Assembly (NCBI RefSeq): GCF_000317205.1
Contig: NZ_AJLK01000086.1
Location: forward strand, 1-64,000
Reading direction: 5' to 3'
Source of the DNA: Fischerella muscicola PCC 7414
GTDB lineage: Bacteria; Cyanobacteriota; Cyanobacteriia; Cyanobacteriales; Nostocaceae
Length of the DNA stretch: 64,000 nt
Shown: positions 13,207-58,139 of the stretch, piece by piece
How the letters are laid out: every line of letters begins with the position of its first letter
Numbering within the stretch: position 1 is the first letter of the stretch
Program-made: the position numbers and the translations under genes
The notes under the pieces: generated by a model
Told to the model about the DNA's origin: nothing
The model's input: only the letters and a program-made list of their open reading frames with translations
Databases searched by the model: none

Positions 13207-16200
13207 ATGGGAAAAGGATTTGGTATTAAAAAGCAAAAGCATGGCGAAAAAGATTACAAAGATTATGTAGATTTCCTGCGTAAAGTATTAAAAATAATTT
13301 CACAACATCCAAATCATCTTGAAAAAGCTGTCTATCCAGTCTTAGAAGCTAATTTAGACAAACTGAATGATTACCTTGCAGAAGTTTTGCGGCGCTGGGC
13401 AAAGGTTAAATTATCTGAAGATTTTGAACAGGCATATAACACAGCAGATGCCATTTTAGGATTTATTAACTTGCTGAAAAACTTTAGGCAGGTAGACACA
13501 GCTAGTTGTATAGAGATTTCAATTGCTGGAAATGAAACTGTATTAGTTTTTGTTACAAGCCCTTGCTTTCCTAAAACAATATGGGCAAACATTCAACATG
13601 ATCTTGGTAACTGCTACATGAAGCGCATCCAAGGTGAACGAGGAGAAAATATTGAAAAAGCTATTAATTGTTTTAACAAAGAATTAGAAATACACACACA
13701 AAATCATTACCCCCAAGAATGGCTAAAAGTTAAAAATGACCTCGGTGTTGCTTATAGCGATCGCATCCAAGGCGATCACTCTGAGAATATTAAACAAGCC
13801 ATTCATCATTTAACAGAAGCATTACAAGCATTTCCTCATAATAGATTTCCTGAACAATTAGATTGGCTCTCACATAATCTTGCTTCTGTTTTATTTGAAG
13901 AAATTTTTATCCAAGGAAATTATTTACAAGAGGATCATCAGCAAATCATTTTTAATTTTACAGATGATTTACAAGAATTTATTCAAAAGTGTGAACCAGA
14001 AAAATGGGCAAATATCCAAAGACACCTTGGGGATTTTTACGACGCTAATCACGAAGGAGATAGAGCTAAAAACCTAGAACAAGCGATCTATTTTTATGCT
14101 AAAGCTTTGCAAGTATTCACTCAAGAAGAATATCCTCAAGAGTGGGCAAAAATCCAACAATATCAGGGCAATTCCTACCTACGTCGTATTCGAGGGGATA
14201 CAGCAGAAAATATCGAAATAGCGATCAATTGCTTTACGCAAGCATTACAAGTTTTTACACCGGAAGGCGAACCACAACAATGGGCAAAAGCTAAAAGCTA
14301 TTTAGGCGTTGCCTTACGCGATCGCATTTATGGCGATCAATCTGAAAACCTCGAACTAGCTCTTAAACATTGTATAGAGGCATCACAAGCAAATATCCGC
14401 AAAGAAAATCCAGAGCTATGGGCAGAAATTCAAATATACCTCGCTACAGTTTACGTTGATCGGCTTGAAGGTGATATAGCTGAGAATACGAAACAGGCTA
14501 TTGGCTGTTTACAGCAGGCATTACAAGAATATACTCCTGAAGAAAACCCACAAATGTGGATATCGACTCACATGGAACTGGGGATTGCCTATTCTAAAAG
14601 CATTATAACCCAAGGTTCTTTTGTGAGTGGCGGTAGCTTGATATCATCACGCTCTCGTAATTTGGGGTATTTGGTAGAAACACTTGATGATGTCGTCCTA
14701 CCAGAGAAAAGCGAAAATATTGAACAAGCAATCTACCACTACCAACAAGCATTACAAATATGCACGCACGATAATTTTCCTCAACGATGGGCAGACATTC
14801 AACATAATCTCGCTGCGGCTTACCTAATAAGAATTCAAGGAAATCGCCCAGAGAATATTGCTCAAGCCATCCACTGTTTGACAGAACAGTTGCAAATATA
14901 TACGCCTAATGCGTTTCCAGATCAATGCTATGAAGCTGGACTATTACTTGGTAATATTGCCTTTATAGAAAAAATCTGGCATCAAGCAATCTTTGGCTAT
15001 GCTCAAGCCATTGCAGCAGTAGAAACTAGTCGCACTTGGGCAACTTCCGAAACCCGTCGCCAAGAAATTTTAGAAGAATTCATTGATATATACCACAAAA
15101 TGGTGCAAGCCTGTATCAATGCAGGACAAATAGACAAAGCCCTGGAATACGTCGAACGTTCCCGTTCCAAACGCCTAGTAGACTTGATGGCGAGTAAGGA
15201 TCTATACCAAAGTGGCGAAATACCCCAGGTTGTCCAAGAGTTTTTGCAACAGTACGAAAGCCTCCAACAGCAAATTGATAATTTCCGTTCTCAAAATAAT
15301 TTTGGTAGTGAGCGAGAATTGGCGGGAGTCAGTAATCGCAACCGTGCTGCCTTAGAAGCAGATAACGAAATTATCGCTGCCCTAGAAGCCGAAAAACAGC
15401 AAGTCTGGGAGAAATTACGACAACTAGACCCCGTAGTAGCAGGAGAAATCCAAGTCAGTCCACCCAAGTTGGCTGCAATGCAACAGTTAATTGACCAGCC
15501 TATCACTGCTATTCTCAGTTTTTACAGCACTGAGGAAGACACCCATATTTTTGTTCTACGCCAGAACCAAATTAGCCTCCATACCTGTGAAGGACAAGGA
15601 CAGGAGAATTTACAAGCTTGGATTCGGGAAAAATGGTTGATGTCCTATGTGAGCGATCGCCAAACATGGGAAACTCTAATTACAAGCATCTTGGGCGAAC
15701 TGGGTGAGCGTCTGCAACTATCAAACCTCATATCTCAGCATTTACAAGGAATTGCAGAACTTATCTTAGTACCTCACCTGTTGTTGCATCAGATTCCTTT
15801 TGCAGCTTTACCTGTAGAAGAAAATTACTTAGGTGACAAATTTCTGATTCGCTACATCCCTAGTTGCCAAATTTTGGAATTTTGTCAACAACGAGGTAAA
15901 CTCGAGACTTTGCACACAAATTCTCTACAATACGGAACTGTAGAGGATGCAACTAATGACCTTCCCTTTGCTAGTTTTGAAGGCGAACAAATCGCTAATT
16001 TGCACCTTATTCCTGATCAACGTCGCTTAAAAGGGAAAACTCAGGCTACCCTTCACAACTATCAGCAGCTAGCACAAAAAGTCCAGGTACTCCACAGTTG
16101 TCATCACGCCCAATCTCGCCTTGATAATCCTCTGGAATCTCAATTAAAATTAGGTGATGGCAGTATTACTTTGGGGCAATTGATGTCACCAAGCTGGCGT

Positions 16201-16695
16201 CTACCAAACCTCTTTGATGTGTTTCTTTCCTGCTGTGAAACCAATTTGGGTAATCCTTCCCTCACTGATGATATTCTCACCCTTTCTACAGGCTTTTTAT
16301 GTGCAGGGGCAAGAAGCGTTGTCAGTACTCTTTGGTCAGTAAATGATTTAGCAACAGCACTGTTTTCCATCTTTTACTACCAGCAGCGAAAAGAGGGGAA
16401 AAGTCGCCCAGAAGCACTACAGCAAGCACAAATTAAACTGCGTGAAAGCAAAAAAGAGTATTTGATAGAGAAATTTACAGAAATATCCAAACAGGCAGAA
16501 TTAAAGCGTAAGGAAGCCAGAAATCAGCGAAAAAAATACCCAGTAGATTCACCTGAATATCTCGAATGCGATCGCGAATATAGAAAGTACGCTGGAGTAA
16601 TGCTTGAGATTACTAAACTAAAAAATAGTAGTGAAAAATTTCCCTTTGCATATCCTCACTTTTGGGCGGCTTTTGCCTGCCAAGGATTGAGTTGA
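13207..16695 (+). CDS. TPR repeat protein with C-terminal CHAT (caspase-like) protease domain
   Basis: A 1162-residue protein with about nine TPR-like units of about 46 residues (from Trp126 to about 590). Each follows the pattern W-A-x-I-x-x-x-L-G-x-x-Y, R-I-x-G-D, E-N-I-x-x-A-I; one unit, near residue 470, carries a 30-residue insertion. A helical linker follows (about 640-760), then the CHAT domain (about 780-1160). The catalytic pair looks intact: His967 in LHSCHHAQ (Gly after His replaced by Ala) and Cys1010 in LSCCET. CHAT proteases are clan CD enzymes related to caspases and separase; the TPR array usually senses a trigger. The gene is last in a three-gene cassette. Trigger and substrate are unknown. 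Confidence 0.92.
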   Translation: MGKGFGIKKQKHGEKDYKDYVDFLRKVLKIISQHPNHLEKAVYPVLEANLDKLNDYLAEVLRRWAKVKLSEDFEQAYNTADAILGFINLLKNFRQVDTASCIEISIAGNETVLVFVTSPCFPKTIWANIQHDLGNCYMKRIQGERGENIEKAINCFNKELEIHTQNHYPQEWLKVKNDLGVAYSDRIQGDHSENIKQAIHHLTEALQAFPHNRFPEQLDWLSHNLASVLFEEIFIQGNYLQEDHQQIIFNFTDDLQEFIQKCEPEKWANIQRHLGDFYDANHEGDRAKNLEQAIYFYAKALQVFTQEEYPQEWAKIQQYQGNSYLRRIRGDTAENIEIAINCFTQALQVFTPEGEPQQWAKAKSYLGVALRDRIYGDQSENLELALKHCIEASQANIRKENPELWAEIQIYLATVYVDRLEGDIAENTKQAIGCLQQALQEYTPEENPQMWISTHMELGIAYSKSIITQGSFVSGGSLISSRSRNLGYLVETLDDVVLPEKSENIEQAIYHYQQALQICTHDNFPQRWADIQHNLAAAYLIRIQGNRPENIAQAIHCLTEQLQIYTPNAFPDQCYEAGLLLGNIAFIEKIWHQAIFGYAQAIAAVETSRTWATSETRRQEILEEFIDIYHKMVQACINAGQIDKALEYVERSRSKRLVDLMASKDLYQSGEIPQVVQEFLQQYESLQQQIDNFRSQNNFGSERELAGVSNRNRAALEADNEIIAALEAEKQQVWEKLRQLDPVVAGEIQVSPPKLAAMQQLIDQPITAILSFYSTEEDTHIFVLRQNQISLHTCEGQGQENLQAWIREKWLMSYVSDRQTWETLITSILGELGERLQLSNLISQHLQGIAELILVPHLLLHQIPFAALPVEENYLGDKFLIRYIPSCQILEFCQQRGKLETLHTNSLQYGTVEDATNDLPFASFEGEQIANLHLIPDQRRLKGKTQATLHNYQQLAQKVQVLHSCHHAQSRLDNPLESQLKLGDGSITLGQLMSPSWRLPNLFDVFLSCCETNLGNPSLTDDILTLSTGFLCAGARSVVSTLWSVNDLATALFSIFYYQQRKEGKSRPEALQQAQIKLRESKKEYLIEKFTEISKQAELKRKEARNQRKKYPVDSPEYLECDREYRKYAGVMLEITKLKNSSEKFPFAYPHFWAAFACQGLS

Positions 16696-49886: not shown

Positions 49887-51863
49887 ATGTGCATTGAATT
49901 TGGCAGGGAAGTATGTGGCACTCTCGATTTAGCAGAATCACGGGAGTGGCTAGTAACTAATAGTATCGGTGGATACGCATCTGGTACAGTAGCAGGTTTG
50001 CTCAACCGTCGCTATCACGGGTTACTAGTAGCAACCTTAAAGCCACCTTTGGGTCGTACCCTGATGTTGGCAAAGCTGGATGAAACGGCTGTGTATGGCG
50101 ATCGCATTTATCCTTTACATACAAATCGTTGGGCTGACGAAATAGTCAGTCCTAATGGCTATCTACACATAGAACGTTTTGCTTTGGAAGGCACTACTCC
50201 TGTGTGGCATTTTGCCTGTGCTGATGCGCTATTAGAAAAGCGAATTTGGATGCAGCAGGGTGCTAACACTACCTATGTCCGATATGTCTTACGCCGTGCT
50301 TCTATGCCGTTACAGCTAACGCTGAAAGCATTAGTCAACTACCGCGATTATCATGGCAGCACCCAAAGCAACGGTTGGCAAATGAGTGTTGAACCAGTTC
50401 CCCAAGGAATTTGTGTGACAGCCTTTCCCACTGCTGTACCGCTTTATTTACTGTGCGACAATGCTAGTGCTGTTCCTGTACATAATTGGTATTATGGATT
50501 TCACTTAGCAGTAGAACGCTACCGAGGATTGAGCGACAAGGAAGACCATTTACACGCTGCTACTTTCCAAATTACTCTCAATGCTGGTGAATCTCTAACC
50601 TTTGTTGCTAGCACAGACAAGCAACCAGACCTACATGGCGAAACAACCCTCAGACTCCGCCATACCCAAGAGCAAAAGTTAATTAGCCTTTGGAAAACTA
50701 ACCGCCCTTCCCATGCCAAAGAAACTCCTGCTTGGGTGAACCATCTAGTTTTGGCAGCCGACCAATTTATTGTTGATCGTTCGTGGTCAGATGAAATTCA
50801 TGGCAAAACGATCATCGCAGGCTATCACTGGTTTAGTGACTGGGGACGGGATACGATGATTAGCTTACCAGGACTGACCCTGGCTACAGGTCGCCCAGAA
50901 ATTGCCCGTTCTATTCTCCGCACTTTTGCTAAATATGTAAATCAGGGAATGCTGCCAAATCGCTTTCCAGATGCGGGGGAAATACCGGAATACAATACCG
51001 TTGATGCTACTTTGTGGTATTTTGAAGCTTTACAGGCTTACTATAACTTTACAGAAGATGATGATCTTTTAGAAGAACTATTTCCCATCCTGGCAGATAT
51101 CATCGACTGGCACTGTCGCGGCACTCGCTACAATATCCATCTAGATGCAGCAGATGGGCTACTTTACGCTGGGGAAGTGGGAGTGCAGCTGACTTGGATG
51201 GATGCCAAAATTGGGGACTGGGTAGTCACGCCCCGGATTGGCAAACCGATTGAAGTTAATGCCCTCTGGTACAATGCCTTACGGACAATGGCTAACTTTG
51301 CTCGCCATATTGGTAAACCTCACCGAGAGTATGAGGCGATCGCTGAACGGGCTTTGGTCAGATTCTCGCGCTTCTGGAATCAAGAAACAGGTTATTGTTA
51401 CGATGTCCTTGATGGGCCTGATGGCGATGACCCGTCCCTACGCCCCAACCAAATTTTTGCTGTCTGTTTACCTGAAAGCCCTCTGAACTCAAGCCAACAA
51501 AAAGGTGTAGTTGACGCTTGCGCCCAGAATTTGCTAACTTCCCACGGATTGCGATCGCTTGCAAGTGATCATTCGCAATATAGGGGACATTATGGAGGTG
51601 ATCAGCTGCAACGAGATAGTGCTTATCATCAAGGGACAGTGTGGGGATGGTTAATTGGCCCCTTTGTACAGGCACATCTGCGAGTTTACAAAGACCCTGC
51701 CCAAGCGCGGCAATTTCTGGAACCAATGGCCAATCACCTGCACGCCCACGGTATTGGTAGTCTCAGCGAAATCTTTGATGGTAATCCCCCCCATGACCGC
51801 GCGGGGTTGTATTGCTCAGGCTTGGACAGTGGCGGAAGTGCTACGGGCTTGGTTGGCAACTGA
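49887..51863 (+). CDS. glycogen debranching enzyme (amylo-alpha-1,6-glucosidase type), C-terminus frameshifted
   Basis: A 658-residue protein. The N-terminal GDE domain starts ESREWLVTNSIGGYASGTVAGLLNRRYHGLL; the catalytic (alpha/alpha)6 domain of the GH133-type starts around 275 and has GYHWFSDWGRDTMISLPGL (about 311-329), RFPDAGEIPEYNTVDATLWYFEAL and DSAYHQGTVWGWLIGPF. The last 20 residues (after GNPPHD) do not fit the family. The family-type ending (ARGCIAQAWTVAEVLRAWLATEV) is encoded in the next frame and ends at 51873. The switch needs one extra or missing base around a run of seven C (51786-51792) or just after it. Function is release of branch-point glucose in glycogen. Whether the frameshift is real or an assembly error is open. 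Confidence 0.9.
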   Translation: MCIEFGREVCGTLDLAESREWLVTNSIGGYASGTVAGLLNRRYHGLLVATLKPPLGRTLMLAKLDETAVYGDRIYPLHTNRWADEIVSPNGYLHIERFALEGTTPVWHFACADALLEKRIWMQQGANTTYVRYVLRRASMPLQLTLKALVNYRDYHGSTQSNGWQMSVEPVPQGICVTAFPTAVPLYLLCDNASAVPVHNWYYGFHLAVERYRGLSDKEDHLHAATFQITLNAGESLTFVASTDKQPDLHGETTLRLRHTQEQKLISLWKTNRPSHAKETPAWVNHLVLAADQFIVDRSWSDEIHGKTIIAGYHWFSDWGRDTMISLPGLTLATGRPEIARSILRTFAKYVNQGMLPNRFPDAGEIPEYNTVDATLWYFEALQAYYNFTEDDDLLEELFPILADIIDWHCRGTRYNIHLDAADGLLYAGEVGVQLTWMDAKIGDWVVTPRIGKPIEVNALWYNALRTMANFARHIGKPHREYEAIAERALVRFSRFWNQETGYCYDVLDGPDGDDPSLRPNQIFAVCLPESPLNSSQQKGVVDACAQNLLTSHGLRSLASDHSQYRGHYGGDQLQRDSAYHQGTVWGWLIGPFVQAHLRVYKDPAQARQFLEPMANHLHAHGIGSLSEIFDGNPPHDRAGLYCSGLDSGGSATGLVGN

Positions 51864-51972
51864 AGTTGTTTGACAATGAGTAAAAACGCCCTTGTGCGAT
51901 CGCTTAAATTTAAAAAAACGCCAGTAGAAAAAACTTCTCTGGCGGAAAATCAAGCAAAAAATAAATATTCCT

Positions 51973-52001
51973 ATGCTTAAATGTTTGGAATATTTAAGCA
52001 T
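51973..52001 (-). terminator. stem-loop downstream of the double-glycine peptide gene
   Basis: ATGCTTAAAT (51973-51982) and ATTTAAGCAT (51992-52001) are a perfect 10-bp inverted pair with a 9-base loop. On the minus strand it lies 28 bases after the stop of the peptide gene and is followed by T-rich sequence, so it likely ends that transcript. Confidence 0.55.
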
Positions 52002-52028
52002 GAGTGTTTTACTTTTCCAGTCATTATT

Positions 52029-52226
52029 TCAGATTTTCAATGTTAGAAATTCTGCTGTAAACTCAACTTTGGCAAATTTGAAATCAGCTTTATAATCATT
52101 AAGCTCTAATTCAGTAACACCTCCACAGACTTTCTCTGTCTCGCTATCTGTTAACTCTTCAAAAAGTTGGGTGCTTTCAACTTTTTGTGGTGTTTGAGTA
52201 TTTAATTTTTGCTTTAACTTCTGCAT
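52029..52226 (-). CDS. double-glycine leader peptide precursor
   Basis: A 65-residue precursor with a 36-residue leader of the double-glycine type: hydrophobic/acidic FEELTDSETEKVCGG, with GG at 35-36. Cleavage would release a 29-residue core, VTELELNDYKADFKFAKVEF plus TAEFLTLKI, net acidic and free of Cys and Ser. The start is ATG 52226; GAGG lies 6 bases before it. The frame is open to a TTG at 52238. It lies downstream of hlyD and a C39-peptidase ABC exporter on the same strand, which would cut and export it. No modification enzyme (LanM, cyclase, radical SAM) is near. Function of the core is unknown: bacteriocin-like or a signal are both possible. Confidence 0.75.
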   Translation of the reverse strand: MQKLKQKLNTQTPQKVESTQLFEELTDSETEKVCGGVTELELNDYKADFKFAKVEFTAEFLTLKI

Positions 52227-52414
52227 TTTTTTCCTCAAAGTAGAATTGTTTTCTGAATCAATAATTCTATAAATTTATTTGTTTGTAAATTGAAATGCTA
52301 CTTTCGTGCAATAACCAACTATTAAATTAGCAATATAATAACGATAATGTAAATTAATGAAAAACCTGACACCAACAGTTAGTAGTAGTCCACTTCATAA
52401 GAACCTCTCCCCAA

Positions 52415-52435
52415 CCCTCCCCGTTTCGGGGAGGG
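52415..52435. repeat. REP-like GC-rich hairpin
   Basis: CCCTCCCCG (52415-52423) pairs perfectly with CGGGGAGGG (52427-52435) with a TTT loop; a second weaker CTCCCCGCTTCGGG unit follows. It sits in the 300-bp spacer between the HlyD gene and the peptide gene. The same REP-like form occurs at 56470-56492. Confidence 0.6.
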
Positions 52436-52528
52436 AGTAAGATTTCTTCTCCCCGCTTCGGGAATTGAGGGGCGTTAATTCGACTTTTTAAATACGTATT
52501 GTGTCCTGGTCTTTATAGGGAAAAATAC

Positions 52529-53929
52529 TTATAAATCAGTAACTAACCTAGCTTTTCTCAACATAAATTGCAGTACTGTCTCTTCTCTAGAAATAATGTC
52601 AGCTTTTGCCTGCATCCCTGATTGAATCTGACACTGGCGCTCACCATTTCCAAATGTGAGACTTTGAGGCTGAATCGTCGCTTCAAAATAGCTAGCAGAT
52701 CCTGATTTTGCTGCATCTATATTGTTGCTTGTAGATGTAATTGCGTCTGGAGAAACAACTGCAACAACGCCTTTAAGAGTCCCATAATCAGGATAAGGAC
52801 AGGCATCAATTCGCAATTGTACTTTTTGACCAACGGCAACATTTTTGATCTCTTGCGTGGGAATGATTGCTTTAATAATAACAGGAGCATTATTAGGAGC
52901 AATTTCAGCGATCGCCTCGCTTACTTGCAGCACTTGGCCAGGGTTTCGCAAATTGAGTTTGAGGACTATACCATCACTAGTTGCACGCACAATTGTATCT
53001 TGCAGTTGATTGGTAACTTGCTGGAGTTCTTTTTGAGATTGTGCGACTTGGTTTTGTATTGCAACTCGACGCTGAATTAAGGCTTGTTTTTCTTTTTTTA
53101 AAGCAGCGATAGTTGCTTTACCTCTAGCAGTTTCTTGGGTAATGCGCTTTTGAGCGATCGCCACTTTAGCAGTGGTAGGATTAACAGCGGCTTTAGCTGA
53201 TTGCACTTGAGCTTGAGCGATCTCAACAGCTTTTTTTTCAGCTTCAAGCATGGCTTTAGTTTGCTTCACAACTAGCTTTTTCTGCTCAAATTCCCGCTTC
53301 CCAATTGCACCAATTTCTGCTAATTGCTGATAGCGATCGCGATCCATCTCTGCAAAACTTAAATCGGCTTGAGCTTTTTGCAAGTCTGCTTTAGCTTTTT
53401 GCAAATTTGCTTGAGCTGCAAGTAATTCACTGTTGGTGATAATTTTCTGGTGTTGATATTCCCATTGATTACGCTCCAAATCTGCTTTAGCAGAAGCTAC
53501 TGTCCCCGCTGCAACTCTTGCTTCAGCAAGCATCTGGGCATCTAAAGCTTTAATCTGAGCATTAATTTGCGCGATTTGTAACTTATCCTGTTGGATATTA
53601 CCTTGCAGCTGGCTATTTTTGATTTGCAATTGTTGATTTTCCAGATAAGCGATCGCTTCTCCTTGTTTGACAAATTGATTTTCTTTAACCAAAATACTTT
53701 TAACAGTCCCTTCAATTTTCGATTGTACTAGCCTATTTTCTCCTGTAGGACGCACAAAGGCAGTAGCTTTTACCGTCACATTGTATTTCATCCATGAACA
53801 GAGACTAATGCTAGTGACAATACTCCCGATCAGAAAAAGTCCTGTTAAGGATGTCCAACGACTAACAGGAGGCAGAAAATCTTCATTTTGAATTGATGGC
53901 AGAAGCTTTTTATTATGAGTGTAGAGCAT
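52529..53929 (-). CDS. HlyD family secretion (membrane fusion) protein
   Basis: A 466-residue periplasmic adaptor. One N-terminal membrane segment (TGLFLIGSIVTSISLCSW, about 29-46) precedes the beta-barrel/lipoyl part IEGTVKSILVKENQFVKQGEAIAYLENQQL. Next comes a long coiled-coil hairpin (about 110-300) rich in A, Q, K and E, then the second lipoyl half TIVRATSDGIVLKLNLRNPGQVLQV and a barrel domain to the end. It links the inner-membrane ABC exporter to the outer membrane. The start is only 14 bases after the stop of the peptidase-ABC gene, so they form an operon. Confidence 0.93.
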   Translation of the reverse strand: MLYTHNKKLLPSIQNEDFLPPVSRWTSLTGLFLIGSIVTSISLCSWMKYNVTVKATAFVRPTGENRLVQSKIEGTVKSILVKENQFVKQGEAIAYLENQQLQIKNSQLQGNIQQDKLQIAQINAQIKALDAQMLAEARVAAGTVASAKADLERNQWEYQHQKIITNSELLAAQANLQKAKADLQKAQADLSFAEMDRDRYQQLAEIGAIGKREFEQKKLVVKQTKAMLEAEKKAVEIAQAQVQSAKAAVNPTTAKVAIAQKRITQETARGKATIAALKKEKQALIQRRVAIQNQVAQSQKELQQVTNQLQDTIVRATSDGIVLKLNLRNPGQVLQVSEAIAEIAPNNAPVIIKAIIPTQEIKNVAVGQKVQLRIDACPYPDYGTLKGVVAVVSPDAITSTSNNIDAAKSGSASYFEATIQPQSLTFGNGERQCQIQSGMQAKADIISREETVLQFMLRKARLVTDL

Positions 53930-53943
53930 AATTACCTGAATAA

Positions 53944-56094
53944 TTAAGGATTTAAAAATTTCAAATGCTCTCCAGATTGGCAGCGCAATTGCATCAGCGA
54001 ACCTTGAATTTTTAACTTACCTTGATCTAGCAATACAATCCAGTCAGCACGATTAATTACCTGGGGGCGGTGGCTAATCAAAATCGTGGTTTTACCATGA
54101 CGATGCTTCAGTAACTGATCTAGAACTTGCGCTTCACTCACTGGATCAAGCCCGCTAGTAGATTCATCCAAAATTAACACTGGTGGATCTGTAACAATAG
54201 CTCTTGCTATTGCTAGGCGTTGGCGTTGTCCACCAGAAAGATTTGCTCCAAACTCACCCAAAATAGTTTGATATTTATTAGGAAGTTTACTAATAAAATC
54301 ATCTGCTTCTGTAACTTGACAAGCTTTCACAATCTGCTCAAATGTAAGATAAGGCGCTCCTAAACGAAAGTTTTCAATAATAGAGCGACTCCAAAAGTGA
54401 GCGTCTTGAGGAACTAAAATTACCTGTTGACGAAGACAATCCAAACAGAAGTCTTCTAGATTATAAATTCCCAGGCGGATATTACCAGATTTGAGTGGAT
54501 ATAGACCTGCAATTATTTTAGCTATAGTGCTTTTACCACAACCAGATTTACCAATTATAGCGATAACTTTTCCACCAGGAATTGTTAAAGAAAAATCTTC
54601 TAGCAGTTCAACTTGGCCAGGATAATGAAAGCTGATATGACTACAAGTAATGTCAGCATCTCCAGAAATTGTAGCGAACTGCTTTGTTTCATCACCTTGA
54701 TTTTCTGGAGTAGCATCTATAACTTCTGTAAGGCGTTGTGTGGCGATTTTTACTTTAGTAAATTCATCTACAAAAGTAATTACAATAGCAATAAAACTGA
54801 GGAAATTACCATTCATCGAGTTAAATGCAAGTAATTGCCCAATACTAAGGTTCTCATCTGGATTAATTACTAAATTTCCGCCAAACCAAAGCAATACAAC
54901 ACTACCTATCCCAGAAACTAAATTAGAGAATATATGATTGTTGATACCAATCTGCATTGTGCTTAATGTCAGAGTAGAAATTCGCCCAAATCGACTTTGG
55001 AATTCCTCCCAAAAATGCGGCAATGCTGTAGTAGTTTTGAGAGTAATAGCACCTTTAAATGTTTCTACTAAAACACCTTGAGCTTCAGATTCTGTCACTA
55101 AAATCTCACGAGTTTTTTGTTGCAATTTGGGCTGAAATATCACTGTAGATATTACCATTAATATAGAAATAATGAGAGCTAATATTGTCAGTTTATGGCT
55201 ATAAAAAGCCATCAATGCCAAGGAAATTATGGCAATAAAAAATTTACTAGGTAGACTAACAACAATTTGAGAAACTAACTGATTAATTTGGTGAATATCT
55301 TGTAGGCGACTGACAATTTCTCCACTACGACGAGTTTCATAGTAAGAGAGTGGTAACTGCAAAATTTGACGTCCAAATTCTAGAACTAGACCCAATTGTA
55401 GGCGTTGGGCAAAGTGAGCAATTAAGTTAGACTGCACCCACGATAAACTGCTAGAAATCACATTCATGACTACCACAGCGATCGCCATATTAGTGAGGAG
55501 TTTTGTATCACCCCGAACTAGCACATCATCAGTGAGAATTTGTAACAGAAAAGGAGAAGCTAAAGATAGTAACCCCAAAAGAAGGTTAAGGGGTAATGCT
55601 TGAGCTAGAATTGCCCGAAAATTCCAGATGCGCTTGAAGAAACTCCAAAAGCTACCGATGCGATCGTTCTGTTGGGCATAAAACCTGATTGGATCTGGCT
55701 CTAGTAAAAGCATTAACCAATCTGCCCAACCCTCTGCTAAATCTTGTAAAGTTAGATACCGCAGCCCTACAGCAGGATCGGCTACTACATATTTTTTGCC
55801 TTTCTTACCGTATAAAACTACCCAATGATGGCCTTTCCAATGAATAATTGCTGGTAGGGGTGCTTCATTGATTCGGTTTAAGACTTCTGATGAAGTTTTA
55901 ACAGGACGAGCATTAAAACCGAGTCTTTCAGCACCTCGTTTGAGTCCCAACAAAGTTGTTCCAAATTGTCCAGTACCCACGACTTCACGGATGTGGTTTA
56001 GAGTAAAGTTACGTCCGTAATATTTTGTAATTGAAGCAAGACAAGCTGCGCCACAATCTTCTTTGCTATGTTGTAAGACGTGAGCATATTTCAT
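53944..56094 (-). CDS. peptidase-containing ABC exporter (C39 PCAT, bacteriocin type)
   Basis: A 716-residue exporter that cuts double-glycine leaders and exports the core. The C39 peptidase domain (about 1-130) has Gln8, catalytic Cys14 (EDCGAACL), His90 (GHHWVVLYG) and Asp106 (VADPAVG). Six membrane spans follow (about 165-450), and the C-terminal ATPase has Walker A IGKSGCGKST, signature LSGGQRQRLAIARAI, Walker B VLILDEST and the H-loop ILISHR. All catalytic residues are present, so it should be active. Its substrate is probably the 65-aa precursor at 52029. Reminiscent of HetC, which also has a C39-ABC layout, but the HlyD partner and small cargo fit a peptide-export cluster. Confidence 0.94.
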   Translation of the reverse strand: MKYAHVLQHSKEDCGAACLASITKYYGRNFTLNHIREVVGTGQFGTTLLGLKRGAERLGFNARPVKTSSEVLNRINEAPLPAIIHWKGHHWVVLYGKKGKKYVVADPAVGLRYLTLQDLAEGWADWLMLLLEPDPIRFYAQQNDRIGSFWSFFKRIWNFRAILAQALPLNLLLGLLSLASPFLLQILTDDVLVRGDTKLLTNMAIAVVVMNVISSSLSWVQSNLIAHFAQRLQLGLVLEFGRQILQLPLSYYETRRSGEIVSRLQDIHQINQLVSQIVVSLPSKFFIAIISLALMAFYSHKLTILALIISILMVISTVIFQPKLQQKTREILVTESEAQGVLVETFKGAITLKTTTALPHFWEEFQSRFGRISTLTLSTMQIGINNHIFSNLVSGIGSVVLLWFGGNLVINPDENLSIGQLLAFNSMNGNFLSFIAIVITFVDEFTKVKIATQRLTEVIDATPENQGDETKQFATISGDADITCSHISFHYPGQVELLEDFSLTIPGGKVIAIIGKSGCGKSTIAKIIAGLYPLKSGNIRLGIYNLEDFCLDCLRQQVILVPQDAHFWSRSIIENFRLGAPYLTFEQIVKACQVTEADDFISKLPNKYQTILGEFGANLSGGQRQRLAIARAIVTDPPVLILDESTSGLDPVSEAQVLDQLLKHRHGKTTILISHRPQVINRADWIVLLDQGKLKIQGSLMQLRCQSGEHLKFLNP

Positions 56095-56699
56095 AAAGTT
56101 AAAATGCTTTTTAATTTTTTTAATTTACTTTAGAAATAATGCAAATTAATCATTCCATACTGATTAATAACAAGTAATTATTAATTGAGTAAAAATCAAA
56201 ATTTTAATATCAAAAAATATATTTCTTTTATTCTTTAATATTTATATTTATAAAATTATGAATTGAGTTACCTCATACCTAAAATTCGATTACTTTTGTT
56301 TTGATTGTTCAATAAATTGTTTACATCTACAAAATATCTGGAATCTATTATTTGTCAAGCCTATATGCAACCAGAGTGCAGATTAGCAATAATGAACTAC
56401 CACGTCCTAAACTAAAGTTTTGGTCTGAAAGCTTAAAGGAACGTGAGTTCTACGGAACCTCACCCCAAACCCCTCTCCGTGTCGGAGAGGGGCTTAAATA
56501 TGGTGTTATGCCACTATAAAAAGCGATCGCTTAATTGCGATCGCTCCGTTTGCCTTCGTTTTTATCTACAGGAATCCCTGTGTAATGAGTGATAGCTAAC
56601 CCAGAGGCGGAAGGCAAAAACTTTCAATTACTATACACTTACAGTGAACATTTATTTGAGTGGATTCCAACTAAATTGATAACTGCTCACTGATAATTA
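56095..56699. other. intergenic region with REP-like hairpin, no gene seen
   Basis: About 600 bp of A/T-rich sequence upstream of the exporter. At 56470-56492, CCCCTCTCCG/CGGAGAGGGG forms a perfect 10-bp hairpin with a TGT loop. Two HIP1 octamers (56523 and 56538) form a near-palindrome (AGCGATCGCT and TGCGATCGCT). Promoter of the exporter should be within the AT-rich part; I could not find a further double-glycine peptide on either strand. Confidence 0.55.

Positions 56700-58139
<1,440 letters not shown>

Follow-up and report, generated by a model that had tools for sequence, protein, structure and literature searches.

A charge-rich double-glycine peptide beside a C39 exporter in Fischerella muscicola PCC 7414 may be an exported structural peptide

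Which peptide does a cell release through an exporter of a common type, and for what use, when the core of the adjacent precursor looks unlike those of its relatives? This question is raised by a locus of the cyanobacterium Fischerella muscicola PCC 7414 at positions 52029-56094 of a 64,000-nucleotide stretch of DNA (contig NZ_AJLK01000086.1, positions 1 to 64,000 of the forward strand; hereafter the window). The locus carries genes for a C39 peptidase-containing ATP-binding cassette (ABC) exporter, an HlyD-type adaptor (hlyD) and a 65-aa double-glycine precursor; we refer to the three together as the cassette. An excerpt of one survey files 290 cyanobacterial precursors as bacteriocins (PMC3140520). 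Within the literature drawn on here, EbfG1-4 are the only precursors with a tested role, in biofilm. The exporter type, the adaptor and the locus type are already known and catalogued, and it is the core peptide that stands apart. A structural role of this core outside the cell is the explanation that we favour, tentatively.

A first-pass annotation, made from the letters alone, had described the exporter with its four catalytic residues, the adaptor just downstream of it and a precursor with an EELTDSE-x5-GG leader, and all three were found as described (Table 1). In Pfam, the exporter matches Peptidase_C39 (E 1.7e-34; residues 3-130 of 716), ABC_membrane (4.7e-32) and ABC_tran (3.9e-30). Its ATPase motifs are Walker A GKSGCGKS (515), LSGGQ (619) and Walker B VLILDE (639). 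Having these motifs as well as the catalytic Cys, His and Asp together with Gln, the protein belongs to the peptidase-containing ABC transporters. It aligns with the solved chain 4ry2, a bacteriocin transporter, over residues 2-712 (E 9.7e-113), and its residues 9-714 align with the ComA structure 8hf7; both alignments are near full-length, and the Cys and the motif next to it are kept. We take these two exporters to come from single-membrane bacteria and to operate without HlyD. The adaptor encoded here scores above the cut-off of Pfam HlyD_3 and below that of TIGR01843 (E 4.1e-50, 171 bits, cut-off 208.65). Pooled ratios of replacement to silent substitution rates (dN/dS), for which the genome pairs are mutually dependent, show that the exporter is constrained, with 0.15 within Fischerella, 0.24 for the pair G434-G435 of a second genus, Pelatocladus, and 0.20 between the genera. 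For the C39 domain within Fischerella, the value is 0.07.

Judged by gene content, the locus has the architecture of the group III bacteriocin clusters, a published cyanobacterial type for which an excerpt of the survey gives 3.89 precursors per cluster (PMC3140520). Common to both are a short C39-membrane-ATPase exporter, an HlyD protein and a nearby double-glycine precursor, and no modification enzyme or second exporter stands among the neighbours. Here, however, a single precursor lies behind hlyD, probably as a unit of its own, and its core contains no Gly, Ser or Cys. That such clusters are widespread in cyanobacteria, as had been noted, agrees with the same excerpt and with our count of 135 genomes, out of 198, that hold an exporter relative at E<=1e-250. 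The group III clusters published for F. thermalis PCC 7521 (two), PCC 9431 and SAG 1427-1 (one each; PMC4558948, from the portion with Table 3) agree as plain totals with the exporters seen here, further distant exporters of this size aside. A Pfam scan of five neighbouring genes returned a TPP enzyme, a debranching enzyme, a nitrogenase-like oxidoreductase, DUF5331 and NifH/frxC, and none of SurA, LanM, an S8 peptidase or a second exporter, in line with the first-pass statement that no modification enzyme is adjacent. The same annotation had taken a hint of cell-cell signalling from HetC, and this part did not hold. HetC of Nostoc PCC 7120 is likewise a C39 peptidase-containing ABC exporter, but it carries an N-terminal cyclic-nucleotide-binding domain (excerpt of PMC10986499). 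Pfam finds nothing, and no CAP_ED, N-terminal of the C39 domain in the exporter studied here, and a HetC-like signalling exporter was rejected for this reason.

Compared across genomes, the precursor is a real gene and not a chance frame, because seven full-length homologues show the substitution pattern of a coding frame. Translation starts at the ATG at 52226 rather than at the TTG with which the program-made frame begins; GAGG precedes it with six bases in between, and the stop lies at 52029-52031. The leader EELTDSE-TEKVC-GG is followed by a core of 29 residues (3.4 kDa). A full-length homologue is present in all three Fischerella and all four Pelatocladus genomes searched. Five of these seven (the three Fischerella genomes, G434 and G435) carry the whole cassette with its gene order unchanged, and the precursor is an orphan in the Pelatocladus genomes G058 and G006. 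Searching 149 genomes of relatives gave a precursor match in six, namely the window's genome, two others of its genus, two of the second genus and G065, where the match consists of three weaker tandem relatives. Of 388 genomes sampled evenly across the order, three matched, the other known members being absent from that list; in one of the three, G327, the match extends no further than the leader and the start of the core (profile positions 17-47). When 217 genomes of the family were searched with a profile (E<=0.01), 12 matched, seven in full length and five in part; the longest partial match is that in G065 (profile positions 1-58 of 66).

The precursor frame is under selection, and neither the leader nor the core appears to be uniformly frozen, as the dN/dS values of the two halves indicate. 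For the whole precursor, pooled dN/dS is 0.22 in Fischerella, 0.53 in Pelatocladus and 0.55 between the genera. The leader and the core, respectively, give 0.12 and 0.47 in Fischerella, 0.52 and 0.54 in Pelatocladus, and 0.68 and 0.39 between the genera. For the orphan pair G058-G006, the leader gives 0.49 and the core 0.16 (4.5 differences replace a residue and 5.5 are silent). The precursor stays below the cut-off of every NCBIfam, Pfam and PHROGs model. The proposed search of the leader against double-glycine peptide models thus yielded no assignment; the CTB family bacteriocin model NF038167, of a family with a similar leader and locus type, gave 15.2 bits (E 0.018, cut-off 32). The NHLP and N11P leader families gave no match at E<=1 in NCBIfam or Pfam, and a plasmid search gave no match. 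Solved structures gave at best phage tail tube chains (E 0.051), which we took as chance. The core was also said to be uncharacterised; consistent with this, our literature searches, whose reach did not extend to supplementary tables, found no paper on the peptide.

How does the core compare with those of related exporters? The comparison set comprised 93 precursors out of 95 leader-pattern matches, two being dropped as plainly not precursors; many of the 93 are paralogues and some may be spurious. Against this set, the core is an outlier in length, charge and strand-type periodicity. A core of at most 29 residues occurs in only one of the 93 precursors. Charged residues make up 0.34-0.41 of the seven homologous cores and at most 0.28 of the comparison cores, and the net charge of the homologous cores is -2 to 0. 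The absence of Cys and Ser, which had been taken to preclude lanthionine or cysteine-based rings, is true of the window's core, but two of the seven homologous cores hold one Ser each. The absence of Cys is not distinctive, since 92 of the 93 comparison cores share it; none of them lacks both residues. Over the whole core, the strand-type hydrophobic moment is significant in each of the seven homologues (p<=0.004, 1000 self-shuffles), whereas one of the 93 comparison cores reaches p<=0.01 and eight reach p<=0.05 (first 29 residues, 300 shuffles). The angles of this test (155-180 degrees) were fixed after an earlier look at the cores, in which the column-averaged core gave p 0.003 and parts of the core p 0.01 to 0.3. 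Because the seven homologues form one family, the periodicity counts as one observation and not as seven.

The first-pass annotation had treated the three genes as one compact module. This picture is probably wrong, because the precursor lies 302 bp from hlyD and has a conserved upstream block of its own. The block, about 140 bp long, shows 80% mean column identity across the seven loci, orphans included, and is conserved in all seven, also where this exporter is absent; little aligns upstream of it. The exporter gene is preceded by another conserved block of about 70 bp; a search of 30 further loci, 28 with exporters and 2 with orphans, gave no match to it at E<=0.01. Since there are two separate conserved blocks, precursor and exporter are probably two transcription units with their own promoters. 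Within the precursor block, the promoter-like TTTTCA-17-TATTAT at 52363-52335 does no more than match the consensus, and a promoter scan gave four sites compared to 2.0 (standard deviation 1.3) in shuffled sequences, which alone is no evidence. A motif common to both blocks was sought and dismissed, as only 9-15-base matches were obtained (best E 0.015). RNA structure in the precursor block was likewise set aside as too weak (-2.4 kcal/mol, 3 of 16 pairs changed on both sides), and Rfam gave three matches over 51700-57000, all far under their gathering scores. Other genes sharing the precursor block were also sought; beyond itself, the block matched one place at E 6e-7 and seven at E 0.17-0.6. 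The strongest match, 42 bp long and AT-rich, shares 88% identity with one portion of the block and lies elsewhere in the genome (L128, G000:C94 1501-1542), with no double-glycine gene; the fragment about 110 bp before it is presumably transposase-like. A hairpin called 'REP' between hlyD and the precursor gene had been proposed to set their relative expression. It belongs to a dispersed repeat that occurs at nine places in the genome, this copy included, and was not found between hlyD and the precursor in the four other cassettes, so that we rejected it as a regulator. The putative precursor terminator was missed by our hairpin scan, which permits loops of at most 8.

Table 1. Features of the exporter locus in the window.
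Feature	Positions	Strand	Basis
Double-glycine precursor, 65 aa; leader codons 52119-52226, core codons 52032-52118	52029-52226	minus	homologues, dN/dS
C39 peptidase-containing ABC exporter, short type, 716 aa	53944-56094	minus	NCBIfam/Pfam, motifs, structure alignment
C39 peptidase domain with Gln8, Cys14, His90, Asp106	55705-56088	minus	catalytic motifs
Periplasmic adaptor of HlyD type, 466 aa, 14 bp downstream of the ABC gene	52529-53929	minus	Pfam, NCBIfam
Conserved precursor upstream block with TTGCA-GAAAGT stretch (putative promoter and 5' leader)	52227-52370	minus	7-sequence alignment
Conserved exporter upstream block with TTGACA-16-TATTTT (putative promoter)	56304-56371	minus	5/5 cassettes aligned
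AT-rich hairpin downstream of the precursor; 6/7 homologous loci retain it, broken in G006	51973-52001	minus	
Inverted repeat CGCCAG/CTGGCG followed by a T run (putative precursor terminator)	51912-51944	minus	read from sequence
Dispersed repeat with hairpin ('REP'), outside the conserved unit	52396-52475	unassigned	

The position of the precursor behind hlyD was compared with 33 loci, namely the sister locus of the same genome and 32 loci chosen among the better exporter matches. By the leader pattern, 29 of them have precursors ahead of the exporter/adaptor pair and four have none; one of these four begins just 1 kb from the end of its contig. Among the 29, L066 has another precursor behind the pair. 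With the same pattern, a single precursor was found behind hlyD in the five cassettes; in two of these, L078 and L079, it also caught five short frames that lack a convincing leader, two of which lie in front. In a tree of 38 exporters, the five cassette exporters make up one side of a branch with full support, and their neighbours carry ordinary upstream precursors; the layout therefore probably arose once within the common type. The sister exporter (L053, G000:C45 6191-11029) is 75% identical to that of the cassette and has three double-glycine precursors in front, two of which belong to the CTB family above the cut-off (76.6 and 71.4 bits). The third (103 aa, with an Arg-rich end) scores below it and by eye resembles precursors beside many related exporters.

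In the explanation that we favour, the exporter would bind the leader of the 65-aa precursor and its C39 domain would cut after Gly35-Gly36, as homology suggests. The exporter would then release the 29-residue core unmodified, working with HlyD and with an outer-membrane channel whose gene lies elsewhere. Trimming and export by the adjacent exporter are very probable, because the motifs are intact, exporter and adaptor stand beside the precursor in five of seven genomes, the exporter is constrained and the leader is kept in the window's genus (dN/dS 0.12). Precursor and exporter would be transcribed from separate promoters, in agreement with their upstream blocks. Outside the cell, the core would act as a structural peptide that coats cells or joins the matrix. 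This is suggested by its beta-strand-like alternation of hydrophobic and charged residues together with a net charge near zero, as in sheet-stacking peptides. In the ionic-complementary self-assembling peptides EAK16 and RADA16, hydrophobic residues likewise alternate with positive and negative ones at a net charge near zero. These peptides repeat strictly, whereas the alternation in the core slips phase about every 8 residues, so that we speak of resemblance and not of membership. Precedent also exists in the EbfG peptides of Synechococcus elongatus PCC 7942. According to an excerpt of PMC4997328, the GG motifs of EbfG1-4 are needed for biofilm and the C39 cysteine for efficient secretion, and according to an excerpt of PMC9981879, EbfG1-3 form amyloid. 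We liken the two systems, EbfG/PteB and the cassette, in kind, as double-glycine peptides on a C39 exporter route for which a structural role (amyloid, matrix) is proposed; mature EbfG, however, has 6-7 kDa in the first of these excerpts compared to 3.4 kDa for the core. Together with the lack of a convincing immunity gene common to the cassettes, this precedent also argues for a structural role.

Several findings weigh against this explanation. AlphaFold2, run on five sequences, predicted no strand but a helix of low confidence at residues 45-62 (mean pLDDT 53), and Chou-Fasman averages favour helix (1.12-1.19 compared to 1.00-1.06). In the earlier look at periodicity, 11-residue windows gave p 0.05-0.21 per sequence, unclear singly. 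Constraint on the leader is far weaker in Pelatocladus and in comparisons across the genera (0.52 and 0.68, as given above) than in Fischerella. In the pair G434-G435, the core shows 8 replacement and 0 silent differences, which leaves dN/dS undefined and would suit a fast-changing bacteriocin better. Furthermore, the precursor is intact in the two genomes from which this exporter is absent. Taken as a whole, with an unmodified exported core, separate promoters and a structural role by self-assembly or surface coating, the explanation is possible and falls somewhat short of an even chance.

The first-pass annotation had proposed a secreted unmodified peptide, either a bacteriocin or a signal. 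The position of the precursor beside a C39 exporter agrees with secretion. Action of the core as a bacteriocin- or microcin-like inhibitor of related cyanobacteria, released by the same export route, appears unlikely, though far from negligible. The architecture equals that of the published group III clusters (excerpt of PMC3140520), the precursor shows the weak similarity to the CTB family described above, and two of the three precursors of the sister locus belong to this family. Also the narrow distribution of the precursor, the lower constraint on the core than on the leader in the window's genus and the replacement differences in G434-G435 are what such a role would predict. On the other hand, the core is acidic to neutral, and 11 of its 29 positions are invariant in all seven homologues (T38, K46, D48, F49, K50, A52, K53, E55, F60, T62 and K64). 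No convincing immunity gene emerged from the frames of 25-150 aa that lie outside the exporter and adaptor genes and no more than 1.5 kb from the five cassettes; such a gene could lie elsewhere or be shorter. The only frames alike in all five share a 20-residue stretch before the exporter on the opposite strand. They were set aside as a candidate immunity gene because their ends differ in position and the aligned bases are those of the promoter-like block.

Where this exporter is absent, could another one serve the precursor? In G058, the precursor stands at the same place as the cassette of G434 and G435, with no exporter or adaptor within 16 kb; in G006, it stands elsewhere and likewise alone. 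The closest exporter in both genomes, kept in each, is of the sister type and 76% identical to that of the window; more distant exporters of the same size occur once each in G001 (63%) and G058 (67%). It is conceivable, but quite unlikely, that the core is a secreted ionic-complementary beta-strand public good that self-assembles into fibres or a surface film around the branching filaments, is encoded by a stand-alone gene under a conserved control region of its own and leaves through a sister-type C39 exporter where the cognate one is absent.

A role as a cell-cell signal with a receptor in the same filament or population seems decidedly improbable. The invariant core positions across two genera would fit it, as would the retention of the gene, with a core dN/dS of 0.16, in two genomes without this exporter, and a separate conserved upstream block would suit a regulated product. 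However, the exporter is not of the HetC type, and the nearest neighbours in the window encode a debranching enzyme and a nitrogenase-like oxidoreductase, not a receptor or regulator. That the cassette is a decaying or neutral passenger, its precursor functionless or not exported, is very improbable: this exporter is missing in two of seven genomes and the two genera carry the cassette at different chromosomal positions, but the open frame, the GG motif and the upstream block are intact in all seven, and dN/dS is below 1 wherever defined (undefined for the G434-G435 core).

The surroundings of the cassette differ between the genera. In Fischerella, a debranching-enzyme gene (Pfam GDE) lies behind the precursor in all three genomes, and a nitrogenase-like oxidoreductase gene (Pfam Oxidored_nitro), which we take to be chlN, lies in front of the exporter in two of the three. 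The debranching gene of the second genus has other genes behind it in all four genomes, the same 226-aa gene, presumably purQ, in three; the cassette of G434 and G435 adjoins an alpha/beta-hydrolase gene. In the window, the debranching gene (49887-51863) is apparently frame-shifted near its end (region 51750-51873), as homologues match only residues 1-641 of 658 and a continuation resembling them is found in another frame at 51655-51873, either by a real change or by sequencing error. The window frame 13207-16695, which we take to encode a CHAT-type protein, has relatives near the sister exporter locus in three genomes (L057, L058, L061). Two further arrays were seen. In the window's genome (L067, G000:C74 9716-10767), three short tandem genes lie behind a 1035-aa C39 exporter and an HlyD gene; they start with an ISDLNHIE...GG-type leader and share a tail around RNVAIA-VAVAGDRK. 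In G065 (L013, G065:C36 7768-9377), three tandem precursors with the leader LTESEAEKV-GG and cores beginning LVTEAEA form an orphan array with no exporter in 17 kb; one of the three was scanned and matched no NCBIfam precursor family.

The search for the three genes in related genomes, called for by the first-pass annotation, thus found them together in five of seven, with the precursor frame conserved. The orphan homologues would permit a test of substrate sharing among exporters of this family. The core is short and apparently unmodified, so it can be synthesised directly and tested for both activities. The exporter is of a common type and the core unusual, and the core is reminiscent less of a classical antibiotic than of a building block that sticks to itself.

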